Shown here piece by piece: positions 26,294 through 34,427 of a stretch of 38,425 nt of DNA (within the stretch, counting starts at the first letter, position 1; each line of letters begins with the position of its first letter). The notes beneath the pieces are model-generated. The model searched no databases, was not told the origin of the DNA, and worked only from the letters and a program-made list of their open reading frames with translations. Where the stretch lies: positions 1 through 38,425 of the forward strand of contig CAMCCU010000002.1 of NCBI GenBank assembly GCA_945872975.1, written 5' to 3'. The position numbers and the translations under genes are program-made. Source of the DNA: Pedosphaera parvula Ellin514. Lineage in GTDB: Bacteria > Verrucomicrobiota > Verrucomicrobiia > Limisphaerales > JADJPG01.

Positions 26294-26626
26294 TCAAATC
26301 CCGAGGTTCGCCAGCGTCGTGCAAATGGAGTTCACGGCTTGAACCAGCTTGGGATGAGATTCCTCGAATCCCTGAACGGAAGACGACAAACCCTTTAACG
26401 AAAGCTCCGCCAGCTCAGGATTCTTATCCTCCCGAATCGCTTCGTGCGTCGAGACCGCCGCGAAGCCTGCGATGCTCTGCGCCTGTTCGGCATCGGTTTC
26501 AGATAGATCCGAAACCTCGGCCTTCAGCGTCGCCAGCAGTTTCAGCAACTCGGCGCGATTCTCATCGTTGACGGATTCCGCCCCGCGCAGTCGCTCTTCG
26601 ATTTTGCTGATGGTATCTCGAATCAT
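26294..26626 (-). CDS. DUF4404 family protein
   Basis: A small, acidic, all-helical cytoplasmic protein of 110 residues. The first helix pair (IRDTISKIEERLRGAE, then ELLKLLATLKAEVSDL) and the ending FEESHPKLVQAVNSICTTLANLGI match the DUF4404 pattern, in which the F-E-x-x-H-P segment is followed by a terminal helix closing in LxxxGI. The function is unknown. The gene starts 20 nt after purM and is likely co-transcribed with it, but I see no reason to tie it to purine synthesis. The start has no Shine-Dalgarno sequence. Confidence 0.78.
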   Translation of the reverse strand: MIRDTISKIEERLRGAESVNDENRAELLKLLATLKAEVSDLSETDAEQAQSIAGFAAVSTHEAIREDKNPELAELSLKGLSSSVQGFEESHPKLVQAVNSICTTLANLGI

Positions 26627-26646: not shown

Positions 26647-27705
26647 CTAAGTTTTAAGGACTCTCGCCAGGCCGCTGCCTTTGACGACTTCACCAATGAA
26701 CCACGCCTTGTGTTTCTGCGCCCGCACGAATTTCAACACGGCATCCGCCTTGTCCGCCGGAACGATGATGGTCATGCCAATGCCCATGTTGAACACTTGA
26801 TAGAGCTCGTCATCCGGCACGCCACTCTTCGCCTCGATCATCTTGAAGATGGGGAGCATGTCCCATGATCCTTTGCGAATCACCACGTCACACTTCTTCG
26901 GCAACACGCGCGGGATGTTGTCCACGAACCCGCCGCCTGTGATGTGCGCCAACCCTTTGACGACGCGCGGCTGGCCATCGCGGTTAAATTTCTTCAGGAG
27001 CGACTGGACCAGCATCCCGTAGCTTACGTGGACCTTGAGCATCTCGTCACCAATGGTGTTGCCAAGCTCAGCCACGCGGCTCGTGGGCTTCAGTTTAAGT
27101 TGATCAAAGAAGATCTGACGCGCCAGGGAATAGCCATTGGTGTGGAGACCGCTCGCCTCGAGTCCAATCACCACATCGCCGGGGCGAATCGCCTTGCCGT
27201 CCAGCATCCGGGATTTCTCGACCACACCAACGATCGTTCCGCTGACGTCATACTCCCCAGGTTGGTAGAAGCCCGGCATCTGCGCCGTCTCGCCGCCGAC
27301 CAACGCGCAGCGGTTCGCGGCACAGCCGCGGGCGAATCCCTTGATGATCTCCGTAAAAACGTGTGGCTCCAACTTACCAGTCCCGAGGTAATCGAGGAAG
27401 AAAAGGGGCTCGGCTCCCAGCACTGCAATATCGTTCACGCAGTGGTTCACCAAGTCTTCGCCAATCGTGTCGTGGCGATCCATCGCGAAGGCAATCTTCA
27501 GCTTCGTACCCACGCCATCGACGCTCGAGACGAGGATTGGCTGCTTAAGCTGCCGGGTGTTGAGAGCGAACAAGCCGCCGAACCCACCCACCTTCCCCAT
27601 CACCTCGCGGCGATGCGTGGACGCGAGCAGTTGAGGCAGGGTCGCCTTCATCCTGTTGCCAAGGTCGATATCCACACCAGCGCGCGCGTATGCTTTCTGT
27701 TTCAT
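26647..27705 (-). CDS. purM: phosphoribosylformylglycinamidine cyclo-ligase (PurM, AIR synthase)
   Basis: PurM closes the imidazole ring of formylglycinamidine ribonucleotide with ATP to give aminoimidazole ribonucleotide, the fifth step of purine synthesis. The 352-residue length is normal. Signatures are YARAGVDIDLGNRM at the N-terminus, the ATP-site segment SSVDGVGTKLKIA, DLVNHCVNDIAVLGAEPLFFLDYLGTGKL, ALVGGETAQMPGFY, GDVVIGLEASGLHTNGYSLAR, and AHITGGGFVDNIPRVLP. It is the first gene of a two-gene unit with the DUF4404 gene. Upstream lie a sigma70-like promoter and a structured leader RNA (27791-27903), which could control its expression. The ATG has a CUCCCCUC leader instead of a Shine-Dalgarno sequence. 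Confidence 0.97.
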   Translation of the reverse strand: MKQKAYARAGVDIDLGNRMKATLPQLLASTHRREVMGKVGGFGGLFALNTRQLKQPILVSSVDGVGTKLKIAFAMDRHDTIGEDLVNHCVNDIAVLGAEPLFFLDYLGTGKLEPHVFTEIIKGFARGCAANRCALVGGETAQMPGFYQPGEYDVSGTIVGVVEKSRMLDGKAIRPGDVVIGLEASGLHTNGYSLARQIFFDQLKLKPTSRVAELGNTIGDEMLKVHVSYGMLVQSLLKKFNRDGQPRVVKGLAHITGGGFVDNIPRVLPKKCDVVIRKGSWDMLPIFKMIEAKSGVPDDELYQVFNMGIGMTIIVPADKADAVLKFVRAQKHKAWFIGEVVKGSGLARVLKT

Positions 27706-27790: not shown

Positions 27791-27868
27791 AAAAAGTGAT
27801 TCGGGCAACAGACGCCAAGGAGGTGGGGGTGGAGAACCCCGCTGAAGAAACGTTCTGCTACCCGAATC
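27791..27868 (-). ncRNA. rod-like structured RNA upstream of purM (leader or sRNA candidate)
   Basis: Read on the minus strand from 27868, an 8-bp end stem GAUUCGGG/CCCGAAUC (27868-27861 with 27805-27798) is followed by a small UAG/UUG internal loop. A second stem, CAGAACG/CGUCUG (one bulge), leads to a large asymmetric internal loop and an apical GGGGU/ACCCC hairpin with a UCUCC loop. The end stem is followed by AC and UUUUU (27795-27791), as in an intrinsic terminator. The promoter just upstream predicts transcription to start at the first base of the end stem. It could be a free small RNA, or an attenuator or ligand-sensing leader 86 nt before purM. It does not match the tRNA, SRP RNA, 6S, ZTP or PRPP riboswitch patterns I know. 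The opposite strand could also fold, but its T-run lies further from the stem. Confidence 0.5.
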
Positions 27869-27874
27869 GAGTTC

Positions 27875-27903
27875 TTTTTAAGAAACACGCCCTGACATGT
27901 CAA
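27875..27903 (-). promoter_or_regulatory. sigma70-like promoter upstream of purM
   Basis: On the minus strand a perfect TTGACA (27903-27898) is separated by exactly 17 nt from TAAAAA (27880-27875; four of six matches to TATAAT). A start site seven bases on falls at 27868, the first base of the structured RNA. It would drive the leader RNA, purM and the DUF4404 gene. Confidence 0.6.
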
Positions 27904-28226
27904 GCGGCGTTCCTGATTTTTTTGTGACATTTTATTCATGGAATTTCCCGCGTTCTCCTAATTGAGAATTCAAATCGCAAAATCCAGCCTTGCTCGACGC
28001 TTCGCCGCGTTGAGTCCCCTGACGCTTCGGGGACGTGAACTTTCCTCAAGACTGCAACCCAGCCAGCCGAAACCAACTTGGTTACAGACACGTCGAAATC
28101 GGGCCTGCCGCATCGAATTTACCGTGCGCGGCTCGCATCTTGATGACCGCTCATTCATCTGCGACGCAGAAAACCTTGGTCAACATTTGCGCGCGTCTGA
28201 CGTGTATGTGTAGTTTAGTGAATTCT
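27904..28226. other. intergenic stretch between the purM promoter and the giant LTD/CotH gene
   Basis: No gene is seen. The left part (27904-27970) is AT-rich, as expected beside the purM promoter. At 28014-28034 a 6-bp hairpin (GTCCCC with GGGGAC, 9-nt loop) may be part of a leader for the downstream gene. The coding frame of the giant protein extends back to 28035, but the extra 64 residues come before a clear signal peptide and are unlikely to be made. No convincing plus-strand -35/-10 pair was found. Confidence 0.5.
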
Positions 28227-31200
28227 ATGAAACATTTTGCGCTGGTGGCCTGTCTGGCATTGGCCGCGCTTTTGGCAACGGCTTCGGCCCGGGCCCAATC
28301 GATCGTGATCAACGAGATCATGTATCATCCAGCCTCCGAGAATCCGCGCGAGGAATACGTCGAACTGCACAATCCGACCGGAACAAACGTGAACCTCTCC
28401 GGCTGGACGATTTCCGGTGGCATCGCCTTCACCTTCCCCACGAATATCATCTTGAATGCCGGCCAATACCTCGTGGTCGTGGCGAATCTGGCTGCGTTTG
28501 ACGACAAGTATCCGGCCGTCGGAAATATCATCGGCCCATGGCTTTCCTGGACGGTCACCAACGTCAACGGACGCTCCTTCACCAACTTCACTCCGACTCT
28601 CAGCAACACCCGCAACGCCATCAATCTCCGCGACGCGCAGGGGAACGACATCGACAACGTCACCTACGCTGACGACGGCGACTGGGCAGTGCGCCAGAAG
28701 AGCCTCAGCCTCTCGGGCGTGCGCGGTTGGACGTGGTTCACGGAAGCGGATGGATTGGGAAAGTCTCTCGAACTCATCCAGCCCGGTCTCGACAACAGCT
28801 CCGGCCAGAACTGGGGCGCGAGCACGGCGGTCAATGGAACGCCTGGCGTGGCCAATTCCATCCGCGCATCGAACGTCGCTCCGATGATCTTGAATGGCAC
28901 CCACCTGCCGGTGATTCCTAAATCGACCGAGCAGGTCAGCGTCACCGCGCGCATTGTTGATGAGAATCTTGCGGGCGTCAGTGTGGTGCTGTTCTTTCGC
29001 AACAATACCGCCAGTCCCACACAGTTAGCGTCCACGCTCATGCTGGATGACGGCGCGCACGGAGATGGCGCGGCCGGGGACGGGCTTTACGGCGCTCTGT
29101 TCGCCGCGATGCCGAACAACACGCTCATCGAATTCTACATCCAGGCCACCGACAGTGGCGCTCGCTCCCGCACCTGGCCTGCCGCTGCCATCAATGCGTC
29201 TGATTTGGGCGGCGGGAATCTCGGTCAGGTCGCCAACGCGATGTTTCAGGTGGATGACTCGGTTTATACCGGCACAACTCCGCTCTACAAGCTCATCATC
29301 ACCGCCGAGGAGATCGCCACGCTCACCACCATCTTTAACAGCGCGGTCAATAGCGACGCACAGGTGAACGCCACGTTCCTCAGCGTCGAAGGCAACAACG
29401 TGGAGCGCCGTTACTTCGCGGGCATTCGCAATCGAGGCCATGGCAGTCGTTCCGGCAACCCTCACAACTACCGGATCAATCTTCCTGCTGCGACGCCATG
29501 GAAAGGTGTCACGGCCCTGAACATGAACGCACGCACGGTGCCGGCCCAGGTCGTCGCCTGCACGCTCGCGCAAAAGGCGGGTATTGCCGGCAACAACTCT
29601 CACTTCGCTCAGTTTCGCGTGAACAATGGCGCCGGGCCCGGCGGCTCTCCGCCCAATGACCTGTATGCCGCCAACGAAGAACCTGGCAGCGCGTGGGCCA
29701 GTCGCAGTTTCCCGGATAACGGCGGCGGCAACTATTATTCTGTCGTGCGCGATATTGCGCCGAAGGAGTTCGGCTACCGTGGCGAGAATCCAGCCTCTTA
29801 CCAGAACACCTACTTCAAAGGCAGCAACGTGAGCGAGGACGACTGGCGCGACCTCATCGGCATGCTGGATGTGATGGGCGAGAACCAGACCGCCACCTGG
29901 ACCTCGGCGCGGGCGCGATCCGTGATCGATGTCGAGCAATGGCTGCGGCATCTCGCGGTGATGAGCCTGTTCGGGAACAGCGAGTCCGGCATCAACACGG
30001 GCAACAATGATGACTACGCGATGTATCGCGGCTTGAACGATCCGCGTTTCATCCTCGTGTATCACGATCTGGATTCCGTGCTCGGCCTCGGCTCGCTCGG
30101 CAGCGGCGGCGGCATCTTCGGCGCGACGACTTGCTGTGCTTCCGGCGACACAATTGGCATCAACAACGCCATGAACTTCTTCATGCACCATCCCGAGATC
30201 GAGCCGCTCTACTACCGCACGCTGCAGGATCTCATCAATGGGCCGTTCTCGGGAGCGGAGTTCAATCCAGCGGTCGATCAAGTCTTCGCCGATTTCCCGC
30301 AGCTCGCCGGCACAGCCACGACCGTGAAGAACTACATGGCTGCACGCCGGTTGACCGTTGCCGCGCTCATCGAAGGCCTGACCCCACCCGTGACGAACAA
30401 CCCGGTCGCGACCATCTCTGGCGAGCCTCGCACACCAACTTCCACCACTTCCGCCGCGCTCATCGTGGGCGGCGCGGACATCACTCACTACAAGTTCAAG
30501 CTGAACAACGGCGCTTACGGTTCGGAGTTCCCTGTCGCGACGACGCTGCGTCTGAACTCGCTCCCCAACAGCTCGACCAACACCGTCCACGTCATCGGCC
30601 GCAACTCCGGCGGTATCTATCAATCCACCGCTACACCGACCGTCTCGAAGACATGGGTGGTGAACTCATCCACGCCCACCGTGCGCCTGAGCGAAGTGCT
30701 CGCGCGCAACGATTCCGCGTTCAATCATTTCGGAACGCTTCCCGACGCCGTGGAATTGTTCAACGAAGGCGCATCTGCTGTGGACCTCTCCGGCATGCGG
30801 CTCACAGATGATCCAACGGCCCCTGACAAGTTCACCATCCCCGCTGGCACCACCCTCAATGCCGGCGCCTACCTGACGTTGCTAGCCAACAACGTCGATG
30901 GCACGTCGGGCTTTCATCTCGGCTTCTCGCTCGGTGCGAACGGCGACTCGGTCTATCTCTTTAATCGGGTGAGCAGCGGCGGCGCGTTGATCGACTCCGT
31001 GACGTTCGGTCTGCAACTGCCGAACCTTTCCATCAGCCGCGTGAGCACGAATGGCGATTGGTCCCTCAGCCACCCGACGCTCGGCTCGGCGAATGTCGCG
31101 CAGCCGCTCGGCACCGTATCCGCGCTGCGCATCAACGAATGGTTCGCCAGCAGTGAACCTCCGTTGACGGAGGACTACTTGGAGCTCTACAACCCTGCGG

Positions 31201-34200
31201 CTCAGCCGGTCGCTCTCGGTGGCTTGTATCTGACGGATTCCCCACTGGGTCGCGTGAAGCAGCATCGGATCGCCGATCTGAGCTTCATCAGTCCTGCCGG
31301 CTTCGCCTCGTTCATCGCGGATGGCGGCTCGTCCGCCGATCACTTGAACTTCCGGCTCACGTCCGATGTCGGCACCATCGCGCTGGCGGATTACCGCGAG
31401 ATGTTGATTGACTGCGTGAGCTATGGCCCGCAACGCGCGGGAATCTCGACGGGTCTCTGTCCGGACGGCGGCGTGACGAATTTGACTCAGGGCATTCGCA
31501 CTCCGGGTTCGCCAAATTATTGCCCCGTTCCTCCACCGCCGCCAGCGCCGCCAGTTCTCGTTAGTTTGGTTTCGCTCACGAACGTTTGGCGCTTCTTTAC
31601 GAATGGCGTCGAGCCGGCTGTGAACTGGACATCGCTGGATTACGACGAAGCTGGCTGGCAGGGCCAGGGTCCGGCGCTATTGGGGCGTATCCGTTCTACG
31701 GGAGGAGCATTTCTTCCGGAACCGGTAATGACGCCGCTGGGAGTCGCAAACGTTGCGCCCGGCAAGTTCACCTATCACTTCCGCACCAGCTTCATCCTTT
31801 CGGCAGTGCCCGCCTTCACCAGCCTCCAGATTTCCAACGTCGTGGATGATGGGGCGGTTTTTTATCTCAATGGCCTTGAGGTCGCCCGCTTCAATATGCC
31901 GGCCGGTCCCGTGGCCACCAATACCCCGGCTGCCAATAATCTGCTGGACGCCGTCTGGGCCAGCCCAAGTCCCTCCACGTTGAGTGTCACGAACCTGCAG
32001 GTTGGAATGAACGTTCTTGCGGTGGAGATCCACAACGCAACGGCGACCAGCCAGGACATAGTTTTCGGAATGCGCCTCGACGGAATCATCGTGACCAATT
32101 CCGTGGTCGTGGGCGGACTGGTCATCAGCGAAATCATGGCTGACAATGCTGGGAGCCTGACAGTCGATGGTCGTACGCCGGACTGGATCGAGTTTCACAA
32201 TCCCACCACGACCTCGGTGGATCTCGGCGGCATGAGCCTCAACGATCAGGTGAACAACAATCCCCAGCGTTGGATCTTCCCGGCCGGCTCTATCGTTCCA
32301 GCACGCGGCTATCTGGTCATCTATGCGGATGCTAGCGTCCCAGCTTCCGCCACCAACACCGGCTTCGGCCTCAAGGCGAACGGTGGCGCGGTCTATCTCT
32401 TCAATCGTGCTCCGGCGACGAACGAGATCATCGACCGCATCGAATATGGTTTGCAGACGCCGGATCTCTCCGTCGGCCGCGTCCCGGTCGGCAGCGCCAA
32501 TATCACCCTCACTCTTCCAACTCCCGGCGCAACGAACGTCGCCGCCGTGCTTGGCGAGGTGACGTTGCTGCGCATCAACGAGTGGATGGCGGACCCGGCG
32601 AGCGGCGACGATTGGTTCGAGATTTTCAACGGCGATACACGTCCCGTTTCTCTGGGCGCGCTGCGCCTCACGGATACCTATGGAAATGCGAACTCCTACC
32701 GTATCCCGGACCTTTCTTATGTAGGCGTGGGATCAAATGCCTTCGTCCGCTTCGATGCAGACAACCCTTCCACACCGTCCGGTCCTGAGCATGTGAACTT
32801 CAAGCTCGGCAAGGATGGCGACACCATCTTCCTGTTCACCGCGAATAACGGCGCACAGCTCGATGCCGTCTCCTTCGGCGCGCAGCTCACGGGCGTTTCG
32901 CAAGGCCGCCTGCCGGACGGTGCGTCCACGTTTGTTTCGTTCCCGGAAACACCGACGCCCAAGGACTCGAATTTCCTGCCGCTGACCAACGTCGTCGTGA
33001 GCGAGGTTCTCTCGCACACCGATCTGCCGCTGGAGGACGCCATCGAACTTCGCAACACGACCGGCCAGCCGATCAATATCGGCGGCTGGTGGTTGAGCGA
33101 TGCGAACGACACGCCGCGCAAGTTCCAGATCCCGGCGAACACCACGCTGCCAGCGGGCGGATTCAAGGTGTTTTACGAAGTGCAGTTCAACAACACGGAC
33201 AATGGAATTCCATTCTCGCTGAACTCAGCCAGGGGCGATCAAGTGTTTGTCTCGCAGACTACGCTGAATGGTTCGCTCACGGGCTATCGTGCGACGGCGA
33301 AGTTCGGACCGGCAGGCAACGGCGTCTCCTTCGGTCGCTACGTGAACAGCGTCGGCACTGTGGATTACGCGGCGATGAGCGCGCTGAGCTTCGGCACGAG
33401 CGTCACAGCGCAGAGCCCGACGAACGAGGTTACGCTCTTCCGCACCGGGGCGGGCGCGGCGAACGCGTATCCGAAGATTGGCCCCGTCATCATCAGCGAG
33501 ATCATGTATCACCCGCCGGACGTCGGAACGAACGACAACACCGTCGATGAGTTCATCGAGTTGCGGAACACCAGCGCCAGCACCGTGGTGCTCTACGATC
33601 CGGTGTATCCGACGAATGGCTGGAAGCTGCGCGACGCGGTGGATTTCCAGTTCAACAACACGCACTCCATCCCAGCCGGTGGCAGCATGATCCTGGTGGG
33701 CTTTGATCCCACGACAAACGTAACGGCGCTGGCGCAGTTCAGAGCGAAGTATGGCTCGAACCTCTTCCTTGTCGGACCCTACAGCGGCAAGCTCGACAAC
33801 AGCACCGAGAGTGTGGAACTCGCCCGTCCCGACGCGCCGCAGACTGCGGGTAACGACGCGGGGCTGGTTCCCTACATCCTTGTTGAGAAAGTCGCTTATC
33901 AGGATCGTGGCGCGTGGCCGACGAACGCGGATGGCTTCGGCATGTCGCTCCAGCGTGTGAGCGCCAGCGGATACGCGAACGAGCCGACGAACTGGATCGC
34001 CGCCGTTCCTGCACCCGACCCGGTTTCGCCGGGCGCGTTGGATTCCGACGGCGACGGCATGCCGGATAGTTGGGAAGATCAGTATGGCTTCAACAAGAAC
34101 AGCGCGGCGGATGCAGCGCTGGACTTCGATGGCGATGGGATGACGAATCTCCAGGAGTATCTCGCTGGCACGCATCCGAAGCAGGCGGGGAGCGCGCTGA

Positions 34201-34427
34201 GTTTGACCGCCACCCGGAACGGCGCCGACGCTGAGCTGCGTTTCAACGCCGTTGCTGGCAAGTCCTACACCATTCTTTACAGTCCCGTGCTGAACAGTCC
34301 GATTGTTTGGCAGCGTCTGGCCGATGTCCCGGTGCAGGTGAGCAGCCAGCCAGTCATGGTGACCGATGATTCCATTTCCGTCGGGAGCCAGCGATTTTAC
34401 CGGATCGTCACACCCGCTTTACCGTAA
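28227..34427 (+). CDS. giant secreted protein with lamin-tail domains and a CotH kinase-like domain
   Basis: A 2066-residue exported protein with signal peptide 1-23 (ending SARA). Reading along it: lamin-tail domain (LTD) 1 (about 26-211, starting IVINEIMYHP); a spacer with a beta-sandwich look; a CotH kinase-like domain (about 352-716) with NDDYAMYRG and the metal-site HDLDSVLG (about 613-620); LTD2 (about 818-960) and LTD3 (about 964-1096); a Pro-rich hinge (about 1100-1108); a galactose-binding-like domain (about 1111-1290); LTD4 to LTD7 (about 1296-1926), each starting with an S/N-E-x-[ML/WMA] strand such as ISEIMADN, RINEWMAD, VSEVLSH, ISEIMYHP; a calcium-binding thrombospondin-3-like repeat (DSDGDGMPDSWED and DFDGDGMTNLQE, about 1938-1981); and a C-terminal domain ending QRFYRIVTPALP. 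CotH-type kinases phosphorylate spore-coat proteins in Bacillus; here the target and the surface role are unknown. Confidence 0.85.
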   Translation: MKHFALVACLALAALLATASARAQSIVINEIMYHPASENPREEYVELHNPTGTNVNLSGWTISGGIAFTFPTNIILNAGQYLVVVANLAAFDDKYPAVGNIIGPWLSWTVTNVNGRSFTNFTPTLSNTRNAINLRDAQGNDIDNVTYADDGDWAVRQKSLSLSGVRGWTWFTEADGLGKSLELIQPGLDNSSGQNWGASTAVNGTPGVANSIRASNVAPMILNGTHLPVIPKSTEQVSVTARIVDENLAGVSVVLFFRNNTASPTQLASTLMLDDGAHGDGAAGDGLYGALFAAMPNNTLIEFYIQATDSGARSRTWPAAAINASDLGGGNLGQVANAMFQVDDSVYTGTTPLYKLIITAEEIATLTTIFNSAVNSDAQVNATFLSVEGNNVERRYFAGIRNRGHGSRSGNPHNYRINLPAATPWKGVTALNMNARTVPAQVVACTLAQKAGIAGNNSHFAQFRVNNGAGPGGSPPNDLYAANEEPGSAWASRSFPDNGGGNYYSVVRDIAPKEFGYRGENPASYQNTYFKGSNVSEDDWRDLIGMLDVMGENQTATWTSARARSVIDVEQWLRHLAVMSLFGNSESGINTGNNDDYAMYRGLNDPRFILVYHDLDSVLGLGSLGSGGGIFGATTCCASGDTIGINNAMNFFMHHPEIEPLYYRTLQDLINGPFSGAEFNPAVDQVFADFPQLAGTATTVKNYMAARRLTVAALIEGLTPPVTNNPVATISGEPRTPTSTTSAALIVGGADITHYKFKLNNGAYGSEFPVATTLRLNSLPNSSTNTVHVIGRNSGGIYQSTATPTVSKTWVVNSSTPTVRLSEVLARNDSAFNHFGTLPDAVELFNEGASAVDLSGMRLTDDPTAPDKFTIPAGTTLNAGAYLTLLANNVDGTSGFHLGFSLGANGDSVYLFNRVSSGGALIDSVTFGLQLPNLSISRVSTNGDWSLSHPTLGSANVAQPLGTVSALRINEWFASSEPPLTEDYLELYNPAAQPVALGGLYLTDSPLGRVKQHRIADLSFISPAGFASFIADGGSSADHLNFRLTSDVGTIALADYREMLIDCVSYGPQRAGISTGLCPDGGVTNLTQGIRTPGSPNYCPVPPPPPAPPVLVSLVSLTNVWRFFTNGVEPAVNWTSLDYDEAGWQGQGPALLGRIRSTGGAFLPEPVMTPLGVANVAPGKFTYHFRTSFILSAVPAFTSLQISNVVDDGAVFYLNGLEVARFNMPAGPVATNTPAANNLLDAVWASPSPSTLSVTNLQVGMNVLAVEIHNATATSQDIVFGMRLDGIIVTNSVVVGGLVISEIMADNAGSLTVDGRTPDWIEFHNPTTTSVDLGGMSLNDQVNNNPQRWIFPAGSIVPARGYLVIYADASVPASATNTGFGLKANGGAVYLFNRAPATNEIIDRIEYGLQTPDLSVGRVPVGSANITLTLPTPGATNVAAVLGEVTLLRINEWMADPASGDDWFEIFNGDTRPVSLGALRLTDTYGNANSYRIPDLSYVGVGSNAFVRFDADNPSTPSGPEHVNFKLGKDGDTIFLFTANNGAQLDAVSFGAQLTGVSQGRLPDGASTFVSFPETPTPKDSNFLPLTNVVVSEVLSHTDLPLEDAIELRNTTGQPINIGGWWLSDANDTPRKFQIPANTTLPAGGFKVFYEVQFNNTDNGIPFSLNSARGDQVFVSQTTLNGSLTGYRATAKFGPAGNGVSFGRYVNSVGTVDYAAMSALSFGTSVTAQSPTNEVTLFRTGAGAANAYPKIGPVIISEIMYHPPDVGTNDNTVDEFIELRNTSASTVVLYDPVYPTNGWKLRDAVDFQFNNTHSIPAGGSMILVGFDPTTNVTALAQFRAKYGSNLFLVGPYSGKLDNSTESVELARPDAPQTAGNDAGLVPYILVEKVAYQDRGAWPTNADGFGMSLQRVSASGYANEPTNWIAAVPAPDPVSPGALDSDGDGMPDSWEDQYGFNKNSAADAALDFDGDGMTNLQEYLAGTHPKQAGSALSLTATRNGADAELRFNAVAGKSYTILYSPVLNSPIVWQRLADVPVQVSSQPVMVTDDSISVGSQRFYRIVTPALP

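Follow-up and report, generated by a model that had tools for sequence, protein, structure and literature searches.

A Multi-Copy Small RNA Family of the Verrucomicrobiota That Displays the 16S Anti-Shine-Dalgarno Sequence and May Repress Translation

Introduction

Only eight small RNA families were counted in the PVC group in a 2022 review (PMC9029176). One structured RNA of a related phylum group, the Acido-Lenti-1 RNA (RF01687) of Acidobacteria and Lentisphaerae, has been described and is not cis-regulatory (PMC2864571), but it matches neither the element discussed here nor 20 loci homologous to it. The closest likeness is found in another part of the bacterial tree. The NfeR1 and alpha-r14 small RNAs of Rhizobiales carry an ultraconserved anti-Shine-Dalgarno (anti-SD) sequence in the unpaired regions of highly variable stems and use it to occlude ribosome binding sites; AbcR1/2 and CcsR, with their CCUCC-type seeds, share the display of an unpaired anti-SD motif on variable stems (PMC10746234).

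The element described here lies in a stretch of 38,425 nucleotides from Pedosphaera parvula Ellin514 (order Limisphaerales, phylum Verrucomicrobiota), which is called the window below. It is probably of the same functional kind as these anti-SD small RNAs: promoter and terminator signals recur among its relatives, and a conserved unpaired motif is held on variable stems. As in alpha-r14 (PMC10746234), the loop is common to sibling copies, and the stems are what sets them apart. The two designs differ, however. Each of the three hairpins of NfeR1 carries CCUCCUCCC, whereas the window RNA is a single rod whose internal loop, below the apical GC hairpin, has one ACCUCCUU in its 3′ strand; both ends of this RNA are locked in the terminator stem, it belongs to a different phylum, and no homology was detected. 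Kinship with alpha-r14/NfeR1 by descent was not borne out, as the window family is without CCUCCUCCC. The small RNA is unrecognised so far, both by Rfam 15 and by the open-licence literature: no Rfam 15 model matched the window element, either at the gathering score or at E-values up to 10, and a search of the 20 homologous loci with Rfam 15 returned tRNA only.

The RNA Gene in the Window

The element, about 78 nt in length, occupies positions 27791..27868 of the minus strand and is very probably a discrete small RNA gene. This assignment is based on the strength of the fold, on order-wide copies with match boundaries at 27868, and on covariation. The gene sits between purM and a divergent reading frame of 2130 aa (28035-34427, plus strand), which resembles a secreted repeat protein of large size.

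An earlier note on this DNA had read a TTGACA/17 nt/TAAAAA promoter with its +1 at 27868, the very first base of the rod, and this reading was confirmed in the minus-strand sequence. The -35 hexamer TTGACA is located at 27898..27903 and the -10 hexamer TAAAAA at 27875..27880, 17 nt 3′ of the -35 and six nucleotides (GAACTC) 5′ of G27868, the predicted start. The 3′ end is predicted in the U-run of an intrinsic terminator, five T at 27791..27795 that follow the AC trailing the 3′ arm of the end stem; the claim of a U-run behind the end stem thus stands as well. A generic promoter and terminator scanner called neither signal at 27791-27903, because its rules need a T ending the -10 hexamer and a loop of no more than 8 nt.

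The minus strand folds with -37.3 kcal/mol (z = -6.0), and none of 200 shuffled sequences folded as well. The 5′ arm of the end stem (GATTCGGG, 27861..27868) makes 8 bp with CCCGAATC at 27798..27805, a 3′ arm that doubles as the terminator stem; both arms are supported by the fold and by covariation. A second stem of 6 bp (27860-27855/27811-27806) is stacked straight onto the end stem and is followed, beyond a bulged A at 27854, by an inner stem of 3 bp (27853-27851/27814-27812), the 5′ arms of the two stems together covering 27851..27860 and the 3′ arms 27806..27814, again with support from covariation. Further inward the rod opens into a large internal loop with strands of 10 and 11 nt. The 5′ strand (27841..27850) is the pyrimidine-rich TTTCTTCAGC, unpaired in the consensus. 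The rod is capped by the apical hairpin GGGG-TTCTCCA-CCCC (27826..27840) of 4-5 bp, with GGGG at 27840-27837 and CCCC at 27829-27826, in which compensatory changes include G-C to C-G and U-A. On the 3′ side of the loop, at 27817..27824, stands the exposed anti-SD sequence ACCTCCTT, which is that of the 16S 3′ tail. The rod of two stems, apical hairpin and large internal loop that had been drawn from the sequence was therefore found in all its parts, with the inner 3-bp stem as the one element that had been missed.

Compensatory Changes and the Strand of the RNA

The comparison of copies gives evidence for an RNA structure. Among 85 distinct sequences from across the phylum, 96.7% of the cells in paired columns can pair, vs 77.8% in shuffles and 45-49% when the partners are slid; 19 of the 21 pairs have changed on both sides, which none of 500 shuffles could equal, and the compensatory cells number 288 against 58.5 in shuffles. 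Because this alignment is fitted to the structure, an arm-swap control was added. In the divergent copies the arms of one and the same copy pair with a mean of -25.8 kcal/mol, in comparison with -14.6 kcal/mol for arms taken from different copies, and only 1.7% of the swaps reach the own-arm median. Within the order alone, a MAFFT alignment gives seven pairs changed on both sides, and no shuffle equals it. The earlier note had named covariation among homologues as the check on its structure, and the compensatory changes across the phylum do hold the stems paired. The stems of the divergent copies are unrelated in sequence (mean identity of the 5′ arm 0.36); what these copies keep is the apical hairpin (U)GGGGUUCCUCACCCC together with the strand ACCUCCUUGGCG.

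The paired cells contain 144 G-U but only 7 A-C, so the RNA is the minus strand. The plus strand was considered as the RNA and rejected: its fold is weaker (z -3.9), and the G-U pairs would turn into A-C there. A conserved peptide (AKEVGVENPAEETF in the plus frame, AUGGGGUUCCUC on the RNA strand of divergent copies) was rejected as well: from copy to copy the core has gained or lost single bases, and this shifts the frame. Inspection by eye led to the dismissal of two other candidates, an integron attC site, for which the boxes are missing, and a CsrA sponge, since the loops are without GGA.

Three class-level relatives (L161, L173 and L174, at about 1501-1569) are missing the apical hairpin and keep the end stem GAUUCGGG; they retain CUCCUUGG or UCCUUGG and (C)UCCUUGGCG, with part of the anti-SD lacking in L173, and have in common an extra 5′ sequence (CAGGTTAAGG) ahead of the stem.

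Copies, Distribution and Promoters

The genome from which the window comes has five copies, four places being found by the region search and a fifth added by the covariance model. The matches of the window element to the other two full copies in this genome start exactly at 27868 and end in the U-run. The 77-nt unit is present in 54 of 58 sampled genomes of the order, every one from a different family, with 1 to 12 copies each and a best match mostly of 85-96% identity. A covariance model trained on 33 copies gave full-length matches well outside the order, and a second model found the RNA in 58 of 188 genomes sampled from the class and in 33 of 388 from the phylum, counts that are affected by the filters used on large sets, which drop weak matches. 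Many families of the phylum are without the RNA at the thresholds used. The RNA is thus spread over most genomes of the order and scattered over the phylum Verrucomicrobiota, all of these counts having been taken within samples of that phylum. In an exact-pattern scan of GTDB contigs at least 117 stretches matched the unit; among the matches listed, nearly all hosts are Verrucomicrobia, subdivision 3, Limisphaerales or Pedosphaera by record name, and the few others were deposited under the names Akkermansia, Omnitrophota and Desulfomonile (MAGs).

Sibling copies inside one genome have the loop in common and differ in their stems. The stems differ, too, in the genomes with unusually high copy numbers, among which G019 has 12 copies, G175 has 9-10 and G069 has 5. 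In these genomes the copy number may be regulated, or the copies may be spreading.

The promoter of the window copy is one of many. Counting a TTGACA/TATAAT pair with at least 9 of 12 matching positions, no more than 60 nt upstream of the unit, promoter-like pairs precede 79% of 162 distinct order-type copies, compared with 7% of shuffled flanks; outside the order the figure is 39% of copies, against 7% in shuffles. The promoters in the family mostly end 5-7 nt ahead of the first base pair, and U-runs trail most copies. Given the recurrence of 79% vs 7%, the coincidence of promoter start and first base pair, which had been noticed in the window copy, is beyond chance and can be taken as a rule of the family.

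The Anti-Shine-Dalgarno Motif and a Proposed Mode of Action

The conserved core of the family consists of the apical hairpin GGGG-UUCCYCA-CCCC followed by ACCUCCUUGGCG, which is the 16S anti-SD sequence. The 16S tail in relatives reads GGATCACCTCCTT and is identical to the anti-SD motif of the RNA. The segment ACCUCCUUG is near-invariant in the family and predicted to be unpaired, with a mean probability of 0.89; its invariance is in part a matter of ascertainment, because the search models contain the anti-SD, while the drift of the stems and their compensation are unaffected. Since the RNA displays a copy of the sequence by which the ribosome docks on mRNA, it probably controls translation.

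How this might work can be sketched from the structure. RNA polymerase would begin with the first nucleotide of the closing stem and halt at the U-run behind the last one, so that both ends of the transcript would be locked in a long stem and thereby protected. The sequence of this stem could drift freely provided that the pairing is kept. Its role would be to hold open an internal loop which cannot close, because pyrimidines face pyrimidines across it, and the GC-rich apical hairpin would fix the 3′ strand of the loop so that ACCUCCUU is exposed. The RNA would then pair with the Shine-Dalgarno (SD) sequences of mRNAs and block ribosome binding. A search of 30 genomes of the order gave no Hfq, so the pairing would need to do without it. 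On balance we favor this whole statement, a widespread small RNA that would be transcribed, pair with the SD sequences of mRNAs and repress them in an Hfq-independent manner, though by a modest margin over its being wrong. The window copy is a gene with several siblings, all of them for members of a non-coding RNA family; the family is well supported, and its mode of action is what we infer.

A pattern scan for targets with extended complementarity found none in the own genome, and the list, inspected by eye and without clustering of the downstream genes, held nothing recurrent. Such a lack of a common extended target fits broad SD pairing; it would also fit the main rival, in which the RNA is a decoy that draws off factors binding the 16S tail. 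It is possible, if rather unlikely, that the hairpin and ACCUCCUU imitate helix 45 and the anti-SD tail of 16S rRNA and titrate a protein or a nuclease instead of an mRNA; Era, an initiation factor or a maturation nuclease might, with similar reserve, be named as examples of the partner. The likeness to the 16S 3′ end is evident in the GC-rich hairpin which in nearly all copies has ACCUCCUU directly behind it. Moreover, the apical hairpin and the GGCG after the anti-SD are conserved beyond what simple SD pairing needs, which suggests a further partner. The imitation would be a loose one, however: the apical loop UUCCYCA is unlike the GGAA tetraloop of helix 45, and the linker is shorter, the 16S bases GGAUC between helix 45 and the anti-SD being reduced to one base or none. 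Unlike the 16S 3′ end, the window RNA also stands outside rRNA and is closed by a stem of its own. A related and still doubtful proposal is a housekeeping, multi-copy mimic of the 16S 3′ end, in competition with the 30S subunit for SD sequences or for proteins of the 16S tail.

Genomic Neighbors

Among order copies with enough flank, 81 of 140 have a tRNA-Asp(GTC) gene downstream on the same strand, at a distance of 53-180 nt with one exception at 306, even though the other neighbors vary. The upstream genes, named from sequence, differ by group: a cNMP-binding histidine kinase with mutL, scpA/scpB, or a Der-type GTPase. The RNA might be regarded as a control element that acts on the transcription or processing of tRNA-Asp, with the unlinked copies as by-products. 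This is improbable, considering that 59 order copies are unlinked, many of them with good promoters, that the divergent copies outside the order have no tRNA-Asp link within 400 nt, and that a second promoter-like motif (TTGAC) stands between the RNA and tRNA-Asp in many copies. The window copy itself belongs to the unlinked set; its genome is 76% complete, so a copy linked to tRNA-Asp may sit in the missing part.

At L006, L010, L071, L075, L095, L099, L110, L112, L117, L127, L150 and L198, tyrosine-recombinase-like genes, which fall into two families, lie immediately 3′ of the tRNA-Asp that comes after the RNA. Judging by these gene arrangements, it looks as if integrative elements use the tRNA-Asp downstream of the RNA as an attachment site.

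That the RNA could itself be mobile, a palindromic repeat of the REP or MITE-like type in which the fold merely follows from the termini, is brought to mind by the varying places of its 1-12 copies per genome and by the promoterless, decayed look of some. A promoter at the usual distance is found in 34% of the copies away from the tRNA-Asp locus vs 65% of those at it, and some of the former are probably decaying. A DNA repeat is nonetheless very improbable, as compensatory changes keep the pairs with G-U on one strand only, promoters and U-runs recur though they lie outside the repeated unit, and a search of viral contigs, phages and plasmids gave zero matches to the unit. Some of the copies linked to tRNA-Asp have integrases close by, and these seem to be exploiting the tRNA site.

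The earlier note had offered two designs, either a small RNA in its own right or a leader that ends in a terminator ahead of purM-DUF4404. Its gene names are correct by Pfam: purM (AIR synthase) at 26647..27705 on the minus strand, outside the RNA unit, followed by the DUF4404 gene at 26294-26626. A cis-acting leader, whether attenuator or riboswitch, would suit the position of the RNA 86 nt ahead of purM and on the strand of that gene, its terminator-like end, and the scanner's report of no other clear promoter-like site for purM. Yet among the recovered neighbors of all copies purM adjoins the window copy only, and so the RNA is not a purM leader; elsewhere it precedes tRNA-Asp or unrelated genes, and no alternative anti-terminator pairing is conserved. 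The leader reading is thus hardly tenable, and the proposed test with purine metabolites loses its rationale. The small RNA half of the choice is upheld by the recurrent 77-nt block with its own promoter, terminator and compensatory changes. The anti-SD motif had gone unnoticed in that note, and the other copies lay beyond its view.

Hardly any weight can be given to a 6S-like reading, in which a short relative of 6S would bind RNA polymerase by way of the open centre of the rod. In general outline the two are alike, each with a stem that closes the rod, an open middle and a hairpin at the apex (RF00013), but the window RNA has 78 nt vs 187, no match to RF00013 or any other Rfam model, and a loop conserved in sequence beyond mere openness. 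Canonical 6S is encoded by a gene of its own in 27 of 30 genomes, namely the own genome (G000:C157:7826-8009) and 26 others of the order.

Significance

An RNA with an exposed 16S anti-SD in an order where no Hfq was found would open up post-transcriptional control in the PVC group. It would be a clean case in which to learn how specificity arises in an RNA whose seed can bind any SD, or whether such an RNA acts on the ribosome as a whole. If the mimic of the 16S 3′ end should turn out to be the true reading, the RNA would set the cell-wide balance between SD-led and SD-less translation.
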